Of a DNA stretch of 43,982 nt, positions 13,874 to 21,017 are shown piece by piece (positions within the stretch are counted from its first letter, which is position 1; each line of letters opens with the position of its first letter). The DNA comes from Bacteroidota bacterium (lineage in GTDB: Bacteria; Bacteroidota; Bacteroidia; Bacteroidales; F082): NCBI GenBank assembly GCA_947505205.1, contig CANNKD010000006.1:1-43982 (forward strand). Reading direction: 5' to 3'. A program made the position numbers and the translations under genes. The notes below the pieces were generated by a model, which saw only the letters and a list, made by a program, of their open reading frames with translations, ran no database searches and was not told the origin of the DNA.

Positions 13874-14216
13874 ACTATCATGTTTTTGTTTGACACAATT
13901 AAAAGTGAACTAAATTAAAAAATTAGCCCGAGAAAACGAGTGTCATCATGATAATGAGGTCAATTTATTTTTAATCTAAATAGCTTGCGTACCTAAAAGT
14001 CTGAAAGCCTTGATGAAAGACGAAAGCCACTGAATCTCGCGTCGCAATTCTTTGATTTTTGCGTAGTTTTGTTAACGCATTTACGCTCAGTAAAATACTG
14101 AATCGCATTGCAAGTTTTGCTGATAATTCCGGCATTTGACTGAATGGCTTTGATGTAATAATTTTTTTCGCCAGCACAGGCAACCTTTTTGAACAATGGT
14201 GTTTTAGCTTTAAGAT
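13874..14216. other. Divergent intergenic region between the oxidoreductase and sigma-factor operons
   Basis: No convincing gene lies here; short minus-strand frames at 13971-14222 have no recognisable features. On the + strand, TAGTTTTG (14064-14071) matches TAnnTTTG but lacks a -33 element. It falls inside a small inverted repeat TGCGT-N10-ACGCA (14060-14079). These could belong to the sigma operon promoter; the evidence is weak. Confidence 0.35.
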
Positions 14217-14786
14217 ATGCAACGAAGTAATGAATCCTTAGTTACAAGACTTAAAAAAGGCGAAAAGAAAGCTATGGAAGAATTTTACGACAAATATTCA
14301 CCGGTATTGTTAGGAATTTCGATGCGCTATTGCGATTGTCGTGAGGATGCGGAGGATATGTTGCACGATTCGCTCATGAAAATTCTAAAAGGAATTCAGC
14401 AATTTACCGAAACATTTGAAGGCTCATTCGAAGCCTGGATAAAAAGAATCACGGCAAATAACTGCATCAACGCACTTCGGAAAAAGATTGAAACGGTAAA
14501 ATTGCATGGAGGTGAGTTTGAAAATTTTGGACATGATGAAAATGAATTCTTCGATTTACCTACACATCATATTGAACCAGAGCTTGTTATCGAAATGATT
14601 CAGTCATTACCTGTTGGATATCGAACCGTTTTGAATTTATTCGTTTTTGAAAAAAGATCACATAAAGAAATTGCCAAAGATTTGAATATCAGTGAAAACA
14701 CTTCAAAATCACAATTGTCAAAAGCAAGAAATCTCCTTCGCAAGAAGCTCGAAACTTTTCATAAACTGCAGGAGGCCGGACGATGA
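14217..14786 (+). CDS. ECF-type RNA polymerase sigma factor
   Basis: The 189-residue protein has sigma region 2 (FYDKYSPVLLGISMRYCDCR followed by EDAEDMLHDSLMKILKGI) and region 4 (LPVGYRTVLNLFVFEKRSHK, then EIAKDLNISENTSKSQLSKA), with only a short linker between, as in extracytoplasmic-function sigma factors. It should redirect RNA polymerase to a small regulon, probably including its own operon. It overlaps the next gene by four bases (ATGA, 14783-14786), the standard arrangement for a sigma factor and its membrane anti-sigma factor. The likely pairing is discussed under the next gene. Confidence 0.92.
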   Translation: MQRSNESLVTRLKKGEKKAMEEFYDKYSPVLLGISMRYCDCREDAEDMLHDSLMKILKGIQQFTETFEGSFEAWIKRITANNCINALRKKIETVKLHGGEFENFGHDENEFFDLPTHHIEPELVIEMIQSLPVGYRTVLNLFVFEKRSHKEIAKDLNISENTSKSQLSKARNLLRKKLETFHKLQEAGR

Positions 14787-16123
14787 CAGAGAAAAACCAA
14801 CTTGATGATTTGTTGCGCGGTTCATTGGAAGATTACAAAGCCGTTCCAAACCCCGATCAACGCGCACGTTTTCTGGATGATGCAGACAATTTTACTATTT
14901 CATCGGGTTCAAGCAACAATAAGTGGATTTACATTGGATTTGCCGCCTTACTTTTGTTCGGAATTACAGCAGGATGGATGTTTTATGGTGAAGAATCTGT
15001 AAATGGAGTACCAACTTTCAATGAAAACACAAAGCAACCCACGACAACTATCGAAAACGGCAAATCAGCCAAAAAAAATGAACAGTTTGAGCCAGCAAAA
15101 GCTCAAAAAAGTGAAACGAAAATCATCCAAACATCTGCTTTATTAAGCAACACTTCAAAGAGCGAACAATATTATTTAGAAGTTGAAAAGACTGAAAGTT
15201 CGGAAATAGAACAACAAAACTCAATTGCTTTTCCTTTAATAAAAGCTGATAATGAAGGTGTTAAAGAAATTATAAACTCAAAATCAAATGAAGTTTCAGG
15301 TGAAAAGGTAAATAAAACTATCATCACTTCAGACACCAATACCAGTCTTCCGGCAGACGAAACCGCAGAGGGAGCGAACCCCGAAGAAACGAAAAAAGAC
15401 ATTCCGGCGCACAAGGAAATCTTTCTTCAAAACCATACAACGATTTATAGTCTGTATTATCGCCCCGAAATGATTTACAATATTATCGAAGATAGCAAAC
15501 TCATGCACGCTTTTGGAGCCGAGTTTCAGTTTAAACTATTTGATAATAAATATGTTATAGGAACAGGAGTCGGCCTATCGGTAAGTGAAGGTTATTACGA
15601 ATATGCCATTGATTACAATGAATTTTTGGGAACATTCAAGAAACTTGACTCTATCAGTTACAGTTTCAATGAAGCCAACTTTCAAATGACACAAACAGTA
15701 CATACTTCTGAATCTCAGGTATTTGACACTGCAACCCAAACTGATTATGCACGCGTTTATCGTCAGTTCGTTTATTTGCAAATTCCACTCACCTTGGGTT
15801 ACGACTTTGTTCAAAAAGAGAATTATAGTATTGGCGTCAGATTTTCATCCATTCTATCCATCCTCTTGACCAACGAACCTATTGATTTTCAATACGATGC
15901 AGGACAAAATCAAATCATTCAAATAAACCAGATAACGCCTGAACGTGTAAAAACAAACTGGCAGCTTGCGGCAGGATTCAATTACACCCATTCCATAGGA
16001 AATCGTTTCGTAATTGAACTAGAACCGCGTTTTACCTATTACTTCAATTCTGTCTATCAAAAATCGGATCACACAAAGACACCTTATGGTTTCGGAATAA
16101 GATTAGCCGTAGGAATACGTTAA
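14783..16123 (+). CDS. Putative dual-membrane-spanning anti-sigma factor (inner-membrane helix plus outer-membrane barrel)
   Basis: The 446-residue protein has no N-terminal signal peptide. Residues 1-46 are a polar cytoplasmic segment, 47-68 a single membrane helix (KWIYIGFAALLLFGITAGWM), ~70-210 a hydrophilic, low-complexity linker rich in Lys, Glu, Thr and Ser, and ~215-446 a set of amphipathic strands (FGAEFQFKLF, YVIGTGVGLSVSEGYYEYA, FVYLQIPLTLGYDF, YSIGVRFSSILSIL, RFVIELEPRFTYYF, YGFGIRLAVGIR) fitting an outer-membrane barrel. This matches the layout of dual membrane-spanning anti-sigma factors (Dma) reported in Bacteroides, where a cytoplasmic segment holds the sigma factor and a barrel senses the outer membrane. 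Its four-base overlap with an ECF sigma gene supports that reading. Sigma binding is inferred, not visible from sequence. Confidence 0.7.
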   Translation: MTEKNQLDDLLRGSLEDYKAVPNPDQRARFLDDADNFTISSGSSNNKWIYIGFAALLLFGITAGWMFYGEESVNGVPTFNENTKQPTTTIENGKSAKKNEQFEPAKAQKSETKIIQTSALLSNTSKSEQYYLEVEKTESSEIEQQNSIAFPLIKADNEGVKEIINSKSNEVSGEKVNKTIITSDTNTSLPADETAEGANPEETKKDIPAHKEIFLQNHTTIYSLYYRPEMIYNIIEDSKLMHAFGAEFQFKLFDNKYVIGTGVGLSVSEGYYEYAIDYNEFLGTFKKLDSISYSFNEANFQMTQTVHTSESQVFDTATQTDYARVYRQFVYLQIPLTLGYDFVQKENYSIGVRFSSILSILLTNEPIDFQYDAGQNQIIQINQITPERVKTNWQLAAGFNYTHSIGNRFVIELEPRFTYYFNSVYQKSDHTKTPYGFGIRLAVGIR

Positions 16124-16166
16124 AAATAAATATTACGTTAATAATCAAATAGTTAAATTTTAAAAA

Positions 16167-18668
16167 ATGAAAAATCTACTCACAATTTTAATCACACTTT
16201 TTGCACTTACGGCTTCAGCCCAAATGCAAATAACAGTGTCGGGGCACATAACACAAGTGCAGACTGGCTATCCAGTTCCCAACCACGAAGTTTACATCAC
16301 TTTGATGAGCAACAACGATCCATCGGGTGGAACTTCCTCGGTAATACTCACCGATTCATCAGGATTTTATGCATTTTCAGGATCGATGACAGGCGAATCC
16401 GGAACATTGCAGGTAAGCACCTCAGCTTGCGATGGAACCACGCAAGGCGAAGTTGTACCCATCGGTCCGAACAGCCCGAATGAGTTTATTTTTGACTTCG
16501 TCATTGCCTGCGATGGTGGTGGCGGATCAGGATGCCAGGCAAATTACACTTATTATCCTATTGATAATCAAACTATTCAGTTTATAAACGAATCTTTTGG
16601 CGATAACCTTCAATACGCATGGAGTTTTGGCGACGACACTTATTCTTATGAAGAAAATCCATTAAAAAACTTCTCCTATTCGGGCGTGTTCGAAGTTACG
16701 CTGAATATCAGCTCAACCGATTCGAGCTGTAATTCAAGTTTTACTAACTTCATTTATATTGGAGACACAATTATTTTCAATTGTCAGGCATCATTTATGT
16801 ATGCTCAAACCCCCAATAGCAATGAAGTACAATTTTTTGATACTTCCATTGGCGATCCAACTACCTGGATCTGGGATTTTGGCGATAACACTGTCTCGTA
16901 CGAGCAAAACCCAATTCATACCTACAATCTGACTGGTGATGTAAACGTATTTACTGTAACATTAACAATCCAGAATGCCGATACATCCTGTAACTCAACC
17001 TATTCTTTGTGTATTTATCTCGGTGGAACTGGCAATTGCCTTAGTCAGTTTCAGGCTATGCCAAATCCAACCGGTAACACCGTTAATTTTCTCGACATGT
17101 CAATGGGCAATCCCGATTCCTGGTTTTGGGACTTTGGTGATGGAAATTCGTCAACCCAACAAAATCCGACTTATACCTATTCTCAACCGGGAATTTATAA
17201 TGCATGCTTAAGTATCTATAAAGCTGATAGTAGCTGTTTTGATATGAGCTGCCAGACTGTTCTTGTTGGACAATCGAGTGATTGCTTGGCCCAATTTACC
17301 TACTATCCTGATTCATTAAACTATGAATTTGGATTGCAATTTATTGATCTTTCTTATGGTCAGCTTACGGATTGGAGTTGGAGTTTTGGTGACGGAACCG
17401 CTTCCACAGAACAGAATCCAATGCATATTTTTGCTGCAGAAGGTATTTATGAAGTGTGTTTAACTGTAAGTGGTTCGCCAAATCCTAATGGAACAGTCTG
17501 CCAAAGCAGTTGGTGCGAACAAGTGCATGTTGGGACAATTGTTCCTCCGGATTGCTACAATTATTTCACCTATTTCACTGCCGGAAACAGTGTTCAATTC
17601 GAAGGATTTCACTCCACAGATATTCCTGCATCATATATTTGGGACTTTGGTGATGGAATTACGGCAGTTGGAAATCCGATTACCCATAATTATCCTAACA
17701 CAGGTATTTACTATGTTACGCTAACAAGTTGGGACGATAACAATTGTTCAGCCATTTCGGCACAAACAGTGGTTGTTGGCGACAGTATGGATTTCAATCA
17801 GGTATATGGTCAGGCATTTGAAGGAAACTGGCCATTAGCCAATGGTTTTGCCATGATTTTCTCCATGGAATCAGATACAAATTACTATCCATTTTTCTCA
17901 CTTTCCACCATTGATTCGATGGGAATTTTCACTTTCCCAATGGTACCAAACGGTGAATTTGCATTATTGGCTGTTCCAACCACCGAAAGTGGCTATCTTC
18001 CAACCTATTACGGAAATACAATTTTCTGGGAAGATGCAACACCAGTTATTCCAGGAGTAACGCAAAATCCTTGCAATATTAATCTGGTAAGTGCACAAAA
18101 CACCATGAACCCTGGCAATGGTTATATTACCGGCTATATCAGTCAGGTAAATATGCGAAATGGATTCATAGATAAAATTAATGTGTTGTTAATGAATGAA
18201 AATCACCAAACATTATCATTCACCGAAGTTGCTATTGATGGTAGCTTTATGTTCACAAACTTAGCCTATGGAACCTATTTCATTTACCCGGAACTAACCG
18301 GTGTAAACAGTGATTACATAAGGGTTGATGTAACTGAAAGTCAAAATAGTGGCACTATCAATTTATCATTTGCCGATAACAATTTCCTCGGTTCAGTTGA
18401 AAACCAAACAGATATTTCTGTTGGAGATATCTTTCCAAATCCAGTAAACGATATCGCACGAATCATCATAAATTCTGATAAAATTAGCCGGATGAATGTG
18501 ATGATTTATGACCTTTCGGGAAGAATGATTTCAGAAAAAGCTGAGCAAATTTCAACCGGAATTAATACAATCGAAATTACTGTCAATAATCTTGAATCCG
18601 GCATTTATTTCATGAAAGCCGTTAGCAATAACGGAACAACTTTCACCAGAAAGATTGTAAAGGAATAA
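16167..18668 (+). CDS. Secreted multi-PKD-domain protein with type IX secretion C-terminal domain
   Basis: The 833-residue protein opens with a signal peptide (LLTILITLFALTASAQ) and a carboxypeptidase-regulatory-like beta domain (~20-115). Five PKD domains follow, each marked by a W-x-F/W-FGD motif: YAWSFGDD, WIWDFGDN, WFWDFGDG, WSWSFGDG and YIWDFGDG. A further beta-sandwich region comes next (FTNLAYGTYFIYPE), and the last ~80 residues are a type A T9SS sorting domain (GDIFPNPVNDIARIII, IYDLSGRMIS, NLESGIYFMKAV, TFTRKIVKE). It should be exported through the T9SS and attached to or released from the cell surface. Cysteine pairs in the PKD repeats suggest disulfides. It lies 43 bp after the putative anti-sigma gene and ends in a strong terminator, so it is probably part of that operon. 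No enzymatic domain is visible; adhesion or matrix roles are guesses. Confidence 0.88.
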   Translation: MKNLLTILITLFALTASAQMQITVSGHITQVQTGYPVPNHEVYITLMSNNDPSGGTSSVILTDSSGFYAFSGSMTGESGTLQVSTSACDGTTQGEVVPIGPNSPNEFIFDFVIACDGGGGSGCQANYTYYPIDNQTIQFINESFGDNLQYAWSFGDDTYSYEENPLKNFSYSGVFEVTLNISSTDSSCNSSFTNFIYIGDTIIFNCQASFMYAQTPNSNEVQFFDTSIGDPTTWIWDFGDNTVSYEQNPIHTYNLTGDVNVFTVTLTIQNADTSCNSTYSLCIYLGGTGNCLSQFQAMPNPTGNTVNFLDMSMGNPDSWFWDFGDGNSSTQQNPTYTYSQPGIYNACLSIYKADSSCFDMSCQTVLVGQSSDCLAQFTYYPDSLNYEFGLQFIDLSYGQLTDWSWSFGDGTASTEQNPMHIFAAEGIYEVCLTVSGSPNPNGTVCQSSWCEQVHVGTIVPPDCYNYFTYFTAGNSVQFEGFHSTDIPASYIWDFGDGITAVGNPITHNYPNTGIYYVTLTSWDDNNCSAISAQTVVVGDSMDFNQVYGQAFEGNWPLANGFAMIFSMESDTNYYPFFSLSTIDSMGIFTFPMVPNGEFALLAVPTTESGYLPTYYGNTIFWEDATPVIPGVTQNPCNINLVSAQNTMNPGNGYITGYISQVNMRNGFIDKINVLLMNENHQTLSFTEVAIDGSFMFTNLAYGTYFIYPELTGVNSDYIRVDVTESQNSGTINLSFADNNFLGSVENQTDISVGDIFPNPVNDIARIIINSDKISRMNVMIYDLSGRMISEKAEQISTGINTIEITVNNLESGIYFMKAVSNNGTTFTRKIVKE

Positions 18669-18686: not shown

Positions 18687-18719
18687 AAAAGCCCTGTGTA
18701 GATAATATGCAGGGCTTTT
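18687..18719 (+). terminator. Rho-independent terminator after the PKD protein gene
   Basis: Perfect 10-bp stem AAAAGCCCTG / CAGGGCTTTT with a 13-nt loop, continuing into a T-run. It closes the sigma/anti-sigma/PKD unit. An ATG at 18707 lies inside this stem, which argues against it as the start of the next gene. Confidence 0.85.
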
Positions 18720-18763
18720 TTGTTTTATTGATACTTTTGATTGAGAAAATCATCAAAATATAT

Positions 18764-19844: not shown

Positions 19845-21017
19845 TTATCCTCTCGCCTGCTTGATGGCGCTTTTCATGGCCACTTCGAGGCGACTATTCA
19901 CAACATCTTCATTTCCTGCTCCGTCAACTTCAAAGAAAACACTGTGTTTCTTATAGTTATCAATTACCGGACGTGTCTTTTTTTCGTATTCCTCCAGGCG
20001 ATTCAAAATCATTTCGGTGCTCGTATCGTATAAGCGCATTTTTTCAGTTTTCGAACGGTCATTTAGCCGTCGGATGGCTTCAACGGTAGTAAGTTTAAGG
20101 TTAATCATACAACTGACCCTTGAGTTCAGACGACGAAGCAAGCCGTCCAGAATATAAGCTTGTACGATCGTACGCGGAAATCCCTTGAAAACGAAACCTG
20201 CGGCATCAGGATTATCCTCAATTTTATGTTCAATCACACGAATAGCAAGCTCATCGGGCACAATTTCTCCACGATCCATATAGGGTTTCGCCATGCGCCC
20301 AATCTCGGTATCAGCAGATATTTCTTTGCGCAATAGTTTACCGGTCGAAATATACACCAGATTATAGTTGCTTGCCAGAATTTCACCTTGAGTACCCTTT
20401 CCCGAGCCCGGTTTACCCAAAAGCACTACATTGAAATAATCCTGTTTGTAGGTATTTTCGATGGTTTCGCATAGGTTTCCGAAAATATCATCTACGGTTC
20501 CTACGCCTTTTATTGGAAAATATTTTCCTTTTTCCTGATAAAAATTAATTACAGGTTTGGTCTTTTCTTCATATTCCTGCATCCTGTACTTGATCACTTC
20601 AAGTGTATCGTCGGATCGACCACTAACTATAGCCCGCTCGAGTAAACGGTTAACTAATTCATCATGTGGCACTTCCAAACTCAACATACAGGTAAGTTTG
20701 GTATTCATTTTCAACAAAAGTCCTTCGAGAATATAAGCCTGCACCACGGTGCGCGGAAATCCGTCGAACAAAATACCCCGTGAAGTAAGATTCATCGTTA
20801 CTTTCTTTTCGATAATCTGAACAATGATTTCATCCGGAACCAAACCACCTTTTTCAATAATCGATTTTGCCTCGGCACCAAGTTCCGTTTGATTGGAAAT
20901 TTCCTCACGGAGCATATCACCTGTTGAAATATAGGTGAGGTTGTATTTTTCGAGCAATAACTTCGACTGGGTTCCTTTACCTGCACCGGGAGGTCCAAAA
21001 AGAGCAATGTTTAACAT
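19845..21017 (-). CDS. adk: Tandem-duplicated adenylate kinase, second domain degenerate
   Basis: The 390-residue protein consists of two adenylate kinase domains, roughly 1-190 and 193-390, twice the normal length of a short-LID bacterial Adk. Domain 1 is intact: P-loop GPPGAGKGTQ (8-17), STGDMLR (31-37), DGFPRT (85-90) and LID GRSDDT (133-138). Domain 2 keeps the P-loop GKPGSGKGTQ (201-210) and FPRT, but the conserved acidic residues are replaced: STGKLLR (Lys227) and KGFPRT (Lys278). Its LID reads RLYDTS in place of GRSDDT. Domain 1 should interconvert ATP, ADP and AMP; domain 2 may be inactive or altered. The gene lies 15 bp downstream of hpt and is probably co-transcribed. Fused hpt/adk genes are known in some Bacteroidota, but a double Adk is less usual to me. 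Confidence 0.9.
   Translation of the reverse strand: MLNIALFGPPGAGKGTQSKLLLEKYNLTYISTGDMLREEISNQTELGAEAKSIIEKGGLVPDEIIVQIIEKKVTMNLTSRGILFDGFPRTVVQAYILEGLLLKMNTKLTCMLSLEVPHDELVNRLLERAIVSGRSDDTLEVIKYRMQEYEEKTKPVINFYQEKGKYFPIKGVGTVDDIFGNLCETIENTYKQDYFNVVLLGKPGSGKGTQGEILASNYNLVYISTGKLLRKEISADTEIGRMAKPYMDRGEIVPDELAIRVIEHKIEDNPDAAGFVFKGFPRTIVQAYILDGLLRRLNSRVSCMINLKLTTVEAIRRLNDRSKTEKMRLYDTSTEMILNRLEEYEKKTRPVIDNYKKHSVFFEVDGAGNEDVVNSRLEVAMKSAIKQARG

Follow-up and report, generated by a model that had tools for sequence, protein, structure and literature searches.

The window analysed here is a stretch of 43,982 nucleotides, contig 6 of a draft genome (3.49 Mb, 288 contigs) of a Bacteroidota bacterium of the family F082 (Bacteroidales). 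Its forward strand carries, one after the other, the genes for a sigma factor of the extracytoplasmic function (ECF) type, for an anti-sigma factor of the Dma type, which is predicted to be anchored in both membranes, and for a cargo protein of the type IX secretion system (T9SS). In the window's family and in Bacteroidales relatives, the Dma switch is nearly always encoded with such a surface-exported protein, 81 of 84 distinct Dma loci having a cargo among the three genes that follow. This linkage suggests that the surface protein is controlled by the switch, and perhaps also sensed by it. The pair of a sigma factor and a Dma was already known; new is the cargo-coupled variant with its linkage, its promoter, and a transthyretin-like (TTL) domain shared by the cargos. 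In one open-licence library, no paper linking a Dma to a T9SS cargo was found.

Operon and predicted architecture of its anti-sigma factor

The frames of the sigma factor and the Dma share 4 bp, and a gap of 43 bp separates the Dma from the cargo. The sigma factor matched Sigma70_r4_2 (E 4e-14) and r2 (E 6e-14) of Pfam; its best NCBIfam subfamily match, TIGR02985, stayed under the cut-off. The sigma partners of Dma proteins are assigned to group ECF21. A hairpin of −20 kcal/mol (z −5.2) with a T run ends the operon. The original prediction, made from the sequence alone, had named the overlapping sigma and anti-sigma genes, a cargo with five PKD domains downstream, and the terminator, all of which were recovered; the promoter at 14179-14203 and the TTL domain had been overlooked. 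The features are as follows.

14179..14203, + strand: predicted ECF-type operon promoter with the motif GGCAACC-N-GTGTT (conserved; putatively autoregulatory)
14217..14786, + strand: ECF sigma factor, 189 aa (open reading frame and domain matches)
14783..16123, + strand: Dma-type dual-membrane anti-sigma factor, 446 aa (open reading frame, profile, predicted structure)
14783..14911, + strand: N-terminal cytoplasmic segment of the Dma, presumed to bind the sigma factor, residues 1-43 with helices 6-16 and 24-35 (model)
14912..14986, + strand: inner-membrane helix, residues 44-68 (hydropathy and model)
14987..15436, + strand: disordered periplasmic tether, residues 69-218 (model)
15437..16120, + strand: C-terminal eight-stranded outer-membrane barrel, residues 219-446 (model and fold match)
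15587..15778, + strand: long hairpin of strands 3-4, candidate docking site, residues 269-332 (predicted extracellular from a deduced topology)
16167..18668, + strand: T9SS cargo with five PKD domains, 833 aa (open reading frame and domain matches)
17793..18371, + strand: double TTL domain of the cargo, residues 543-735 (scored in all complete coupled cargos)
18429..18659, + strand: T9SS type A C-terminal sorting domain, Por_Secre_tail, residues 755-831
18687..18722, + strand: intrinsic terminator (hairpin and T run)

Dma proteins are described as consisting of an anti-sigma domain, a transmembrane helix, a disordered tether, and a C-terminal barrel (PMC13088901). Judged from an AlphaFold model computed with 56 aligned sequences, the window protein almost certainly has this architecture, and its original assignment to the Dma class agrees with the available part of that description. 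The N-terminus is modelled as two short helices (residues 6-16 and 24-35) and shows profile kinship with the N-termini of Dma-like proteins throughout the phylum. A cytoplasmic segment of 46 residues had been predicted; its presence was confirmed and its size is better given as about 43-48 residues. The single membrane helix that follows spans residues 44-68 in the model, and the best hydropathy window begins at residue 49. In the tether, nearly all residues between 70 and 203 (70-134 and 136-203) have a predicted local distance difference test (pLDDT) value below 50, which agrees with the disorder originally assumed for a linker of ∼140 residues, whereas the length has to be corrected to about 150 (151 aa by hydropathy; median 154, range 110-222 among the 56 sequences). 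Stretched to an estimated 0.34 nm each, 150 residues would measure ∼50 nm, enough to cross the periplasm. Residues 219-446, with eight main strands to residue 445, were modelled as a barrel with block means of pLDDT between 85 and 98 (one block, 67). In VIA-align, the fold matched OprF (4rlc; Z 16.8, root mean square deviation [rmsd] 2.5, 131 residues aligned), and the other matches, NspA, OmpW, and OmpA, are likewise eight-stranded outer-membrane proteins. Hydropathy, model, and fold matches thus bear out one membrane helix and an outer-membrane-type barrel as proposed, and a soluble periplasmic domain in the C-terminal part, which would have spoken against the proposal, is ruled out by the confident barrel model and the fold matches. 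Neither FecR nor STN was among the Pfam matches of the window's proteins at E values up to 1. With the sigma factor presumably bound by its N-terminal segment, the protein very probably works as an anti-sigma factor.

The same layout, with the anti-sigma gene adjoining that of the sigma factor, is described for Dma1/Das1 and Dma2/Das2 of Bacteroides thetaiotaomicron, and the known phenotype of Dma1 and Dma2 is vesiculation (PMC13088901). The likeness is one of description only, and, unlike in the window, the available part of that source mentions neither a T9SS cargo nor a partner with TTL or PKD domains.

Linkage of the cargo and its TTL domain to barrel sensors

The loci compared come from the window's family and from Bacteroidales relatives. 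The window Dma was matched in 47 of the 149 family genomes; of 74 match places besides the window, 40, chosen mostly from the top, were taken, and a further 61 loci of relatives were scanned in full; these relatives are metagenome assemblies whose titles mostly read Bacteroidales or Bacteroidetes, and many bear lake names. Because many loci came from the same genomes, duplicates were removed before counting, and Dma frames shorter than 225 aa were left out. A gene was considered a cargo when it was among the next three, on the same strand, and contained the TTL domain, the C-terminal sorting domain (CTD), or the cargo N end plus PKD. The sigma gene stands upstream of the Dma in 80 of the 84 distinct loci, the other four having no upstream frame of at least 90 aa in the locus, and in 77 the cargo is the very next gene. 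Where it is present but not directly next, the Dma frame is split (L084 and L197) or a frame on the opposite strand lies between (L166 and L170). The three cargo-less loci (L097, L155, and L176) reach contig ends, and L155 shows the beginning of a cargo N end. In 13 loci, a span of three genes holds more than one TTL cargo (two or three). Since a Dma followed by a PKD cargo was also found in all four genus genomes examined, in addition to the 81 of 84 loci, the gene arrangement is not due to chance.

Phylum-wide, the Dma profile was matched in 87 of 395 genomes. In 19 control places taken from these matches, a sigma gene was always present (19/19) and a cargo never (0/19). Two more Dma loci of the phylum (genomes G185 and G165), picked by their TTL cargo, are coupled, the cargo standing before the sigma gene in L246 and after the Dma in L247; outside the family, the cargo is therefore rare, not absent. 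In a quick sigma tree (63 rows, long branches), the label coupled or uncoupled changes four times. In a locus of the same order (L220, 3052-5121), a sigma gene and a gene for a Dma-like barrel protein are followed by that of a NigD-like lipoprotein (PF22221), which recalls the link between Dma1 and NigD1, the latter being needed for the vesicle phenotype of a dma1 mutant according to the part of the source available (PMC13088901).

The cargo of the window has a CarboxypepD_reg match at its N end and five PKD_4 stretches (Pfam), in line with the five PKD domains originally predicted. From CarboxypepD_reg-type Pfam matches and fold matches, residues 543-735 are read as two putative TTL sandwiches. 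The sorting domain matched Por_Secre_tail (E 1.7e-14) and TIGR04183 (above cut-off), and its fold matched the CTD of mirolase (8qb1; Z 11.6, rmsd 1.5, 77 aligned) and PorU (6za2; Z 11.0, rmsd 1.9, 87 aligned); together with residues 543-735, it was modelled at a mean pLDDT of 89.6. The T9SS translocon SprA is encoded in the same genome, split over two contig pieces, and 132 CTD matches there compare with three TTL places. Complete cargos contain TTL and CTD in 73 of 73 cases, the TTL profile having been iterated on the cargos themselves so that its presence there is partly by construction, and at least one PKD in 72 of 73; the PKD number varies between 0 and 8. Among the three parts of the cargo that were compared, the TTL domain has diverged least (median distance over 63 loci, 1.64; N end, 1.96; CTD, 2.15).

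The TTL domain is also encoded beside another kind of sensor. Among 35 matches in 12 family genomes, 29 were strong (E 1e-20 or better), one of which (G030:C23) was judged from coordinates only; 26 of these 29 places adjoin the gene of a barrel sensor, 16 of the Dma type and 10 of a type composed of a FecI-like sigma factor, FecR, and a relative of a protein whose STN and barrel matches are weak. The window's own genome has a second ECF system of the latter kind (L201; contig 51, 4000-14500; 1924-8205). There, a FecI-like sigma factor, FecR (above cut-off), and a protein with a weak STN match (under cut-off), a TDT-rich linker, and a barrel are followed by a cargo of 1016 aa that has the same TTL domain and a beta-helix head instead of the PKDs. 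In two loci of distant members of the phylum, L262 (984-2336) and L267 (1660-2925), the gene of an ECF-like sigma factor adjoins that of an apparent anti-sigma factor of another type, with a linker (repetitive in L267), a C-end that looks barrel-like by eye, and no Pfam match, and a TTL cargo lies downstream. A third linkage of sigma factor and cargo in the window's own genome (L229; contig 90, 198-6021) comprises an ECF sigma factor, a possible anti-sigma factor of 369 aa with no recognised domain, and two T9SS CTD proteins without TTL.

As to the surroundings of the operon, one protein encoded at 19845-21017 (− strand) of the window contains two adenylate kinase domains in tandem, and a frame of 390 aa lies downstream of the operon in three genus relatives as well. 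In many lake-named relatives (L160, L172, L183, L184, and others), the operon is placed between genes of ∼805-849 aa and ∼944-1002 aa; one of each was tested against Pfam, giving a proton-pumping pyrophosphatase before the operon (L158) and a glycine cleavage P-protein after it (L162).

Predicted promoter and probable output of the switch

Upstream of the sigma gene, at 14179-14203, lies the predicted promoter GGCAACCTTTTTGAACAATGGTGTT, the sole match of the motif in the window; none of 100 shuffles contained one. When the distinct regions upstream of coupled loci were scored (77 in all), the motif was present in its strict form in 33 and in its relaxed form in 55, although it had been derived from these very regions. 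None of the 19 control Dma loci contained it, and 200 shuffles yielded it in at most 2 of 77. These numbers supersede a count on longer regions that were not de-duplicated (66/92 coupled, 1/19 control [144 bases from start codon]). Inspection by eye of the 22 regions without the motif showed that many contain GGCAAC followed by a less well matching second half, or have a start codon placed too far upstream; in one divergent clade, the motif takes the form TGCAACC...TGTCA. In the window's own genome, the strict motif occurs once, at the operon. It also occurs once before the orthologous sigma gene in each of the three other genus genomes (in G001 on a different contig, where the sigma gene was confirmed). 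One extra strict site each in G001 and G002 equals the level of the reversed-pattern control (one per genome), and a wider regulon defined by the strict motif was rejected on these grounds; a looser motif could reveal further targets. Because the strict site is found once in its genome, the operon is the sole target found with this motif and its autoregulation is likely; we consider it highly probable. The leader transcribed from the predicted promoter would be just a few bases long. The same single conserved promoter supports the earlier proposal that the cargo is the main output of the circuit, which is probably the case.

A promoter with one predicted target is also what would be expected if the Dma sensed the state of the outer membrane (a lipid, barrel assembly, or a soluble ligand) and the cargo were an induced product that never touches the sensor, an explanation to which we assign a sizeable minority chance. 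In line with it, the cargo is absent from the 19 control Dma loci, and in L220 a NigD-like lipoprotein occupies the slot after the Dma. The known Dma2 is likewise part of a three-gene operon, the third gene of which encodes a protein of unknown function, and is described as primarily regulating that operon and polysaccharide utilization loci (PMC13088901). This explanation does not account, however, for the presence of the rare TTL domain in every one of the 73 complete cargos as well as next to the sensor of the FecR plus STN-barrel type, or for the extra constraint on one hairpin of the barrel (see below). The single strict site speaks, on the other hand, against a circuit in which the barrel checks export or anchoring of the cargo and signals how much can be secreted, a role proposed for PorA upstream of PorXY-SigP; such surveillance would also leave the variable PKD head unexplained. 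Although SprA is present in the genome and, in Porphyromonas gingivalis, the CTD protein PorA has an effect on SigP and on T9SS gene expression (PMC7712824), we regard this reading, which overlaps with the docking circuit proposed below, as improbable.

Barrel hairpin and a proposed circuit

Strands 3 and 4 of the barrel comprise 40 and 44 residues and would form a long hairpin (L2) on the outside, provided that the N-terminus of the barrel is periplasmic. On an approximate division into strands, conservation amounts to 2.66 bits in the outside regions, compared with 2.78 bits in the membrane strands and 0.73 bits in the tether, and 25 of 122 outside positions and 21 of 95 strand positions are conserved to at least 90%. 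For comparison, 13 cargo-less Dmas with a comparable overall identity were used (0.42 against 0.46); five of 18 control Dmas (L210, L215, L218, L219, and L220) had been dropped because they looked odd on inspection, and L202 did not belong to the set. Hairpin L2 is conserved at 2.72 bits in coupled Dmas (lowest of 300 draws of 13: 2.48) and at 1.91 bits in cargo-less ones, the ratio of hairpin to strand conservation is 0.92 versus 0.61, and the hairpin length is 61.9 ± 0.2 versus 68.5 ± 6.7. Since hairpin L2 differs in this way from that of cargo-less Dmas, a fixed partner in the coupled systems fits, and the co-encoded TTL domain is a natural candidate for it.

On balance, and with some reserve, we favour an autoregulated Dma circuit with the cargo as its main output, in which the cargo TTL domain would dock on the barrel. 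The N-terminal segment of the Dma would hold the sigma factor at the inner membrane, with the tether crossing the periplasm to the protein's own outer-membrane barrel. Once freed, the sigma factor would read the GGCAACC...GTGTT promoter ahead of its own operon, leading to the PKD protein exported by the T9SS. The latter may return from the outside and dock with its TTL domain on the extracellular hairpin, its variable PKD head pointing to the environment. Docking, or its loss, would alter the pull on, or the proteolysis of, the tethered anti-sigma factor; by analogy with other anti-sigma factors, the release step is probably proteolytic. The favoured sign is that of a negative-feedback homeostat, in which docked cargo keeps the sigma factor bound; if docking does occur, a negative sign appears somewhat likelier than a positive one. 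Docking itself is possible, at slightly less than an even chance: the original suggestion that the cargo is a ligand of the sensor is strengthened by the association of TTL domains with barrels and by the conserved hairpin, while binding as such stays conjectural.

Related systems are known. In FecI-FecR-FecA, an outer-membrane protein controls an ECF sigma factor; the window differs in that one polypeptide would span the envelope, whereas L201 has FecI and FecR together with an STN-barrel. In RsgI-SigI of Clostridium thermocellum, a Gram-positive organism with a single membrane, extracellular binding modules are linked to the anti-sigma factor, the head being fused to it, in contrast to the separate exported protein proposed here. 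PorP and SprF, barrels that hold surface proteins, are not known to have an anti-sigma part. In P. gingivalis, PorA acts upstream of PorXY-SigP, so that, as proposed for the window, a T9SS-sorted surface protein influences an ECF sigma factor; unlike in the window, the route is a two-component system, PorA is a protein of 246 aa with a FimH-like domain, and the available part of the source describes no barrel anti-sigma factor (PMC7712824). T9SS type B surface proteins are reported to bind barrels, namely PG1035 to PorP and SprB to SprF, which resembles the proposal in that a T9SS-exported protein sits on an outer-membrane barrel but differs in the type of cargo (PMC9143113). Given the PorA-SigP and PorP/SprF precedents, it is plausible that a cargo, once exported, docks on a barrel and thereby acts back on its own sigma factor. 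The latter complexes might also suggest that the barrel mainly holds the cargo on the membrane, with signalling being secondary. This is very unlikely: the cargo has a sorting domain of type A, and type A proteins are reported to be anchored by lipopolysaccharide (PMC9143113), and the barrel shares one polypeptide with an anti-sigma-like N-terminus, its gene lying beside that of a sigma factor in 80 of 84 loci.

Several observations weigh against the docking circuit, beginning with the partial circularity of the TTL and promoter counts mentioned above. The CarboxypepD_reg fold, of which the TTL domain is one version, is common, and the Pfam barrel match of the window Dma stays under the cut-off. 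Loops L3 and L4 are equally conserved in cargo-less Dmas, hairpin L2 alone being different. The distance correlation given the sigma factor is 0.46 for barrel and TTL, barely above the 0.38 for barrel and CTD (63 loci), and the mirror-tree approach was rejected as proof. Three strong TTL places (L232, L234, and L236) have neither a neighbouring sensor nor the promoter GGCAACC...GTGTT; L244, one of the ten FecR and STN places, has no sigma factor in its stretch; and among six weaker matches, the one inspected, L245, showed no sensor by profile. Outside the family (26 loci in 25 genomes, from the top of the search), a sigma gene on the same strand within five genes was found in only four of the TTL-like loci, two with a Dma by profile (L246 and L247) and two with a barrel-like anti-sigma factor by eye (L262 and L267); in L261, the sigma gene is on the opposite strand, and 21 of the 26 have no profile match within five genes.

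More generally, the systems might represent a split receptor, in which a T9SS protein with an exchangeable head (PKDs, or the beta-helix in L201) plugs via its TTL domain into the extracellular hairpin of an envelope-spanning barrel and signals directly from the outside to the cytoplasm, with no TonB-dependent transducer involved. One and the same docking domain would then be reused with a Dma, with FecR plus an STN-barrel, and perhaps with the type seen in L262 and L267. This generalisation is speculative and, on present evidence, unlikely.

For Dma2, the signal is only hypothesised, as an unknown glycan, in the available part of its description (PMC13088901). For the cargo-coupled variant, 81 of 84 loci offer a candidate partner of the sensor a short way downstream, TTL being its candidate docking domain and the hairpin the putative counterpart, and the promoter motif makes the output of the operon measurable by a simple reporter. 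If docking proves true, T9SS export and transcription would be joined in one loop, and an exported protein could make its arrival, or its ligand, known to the genome.

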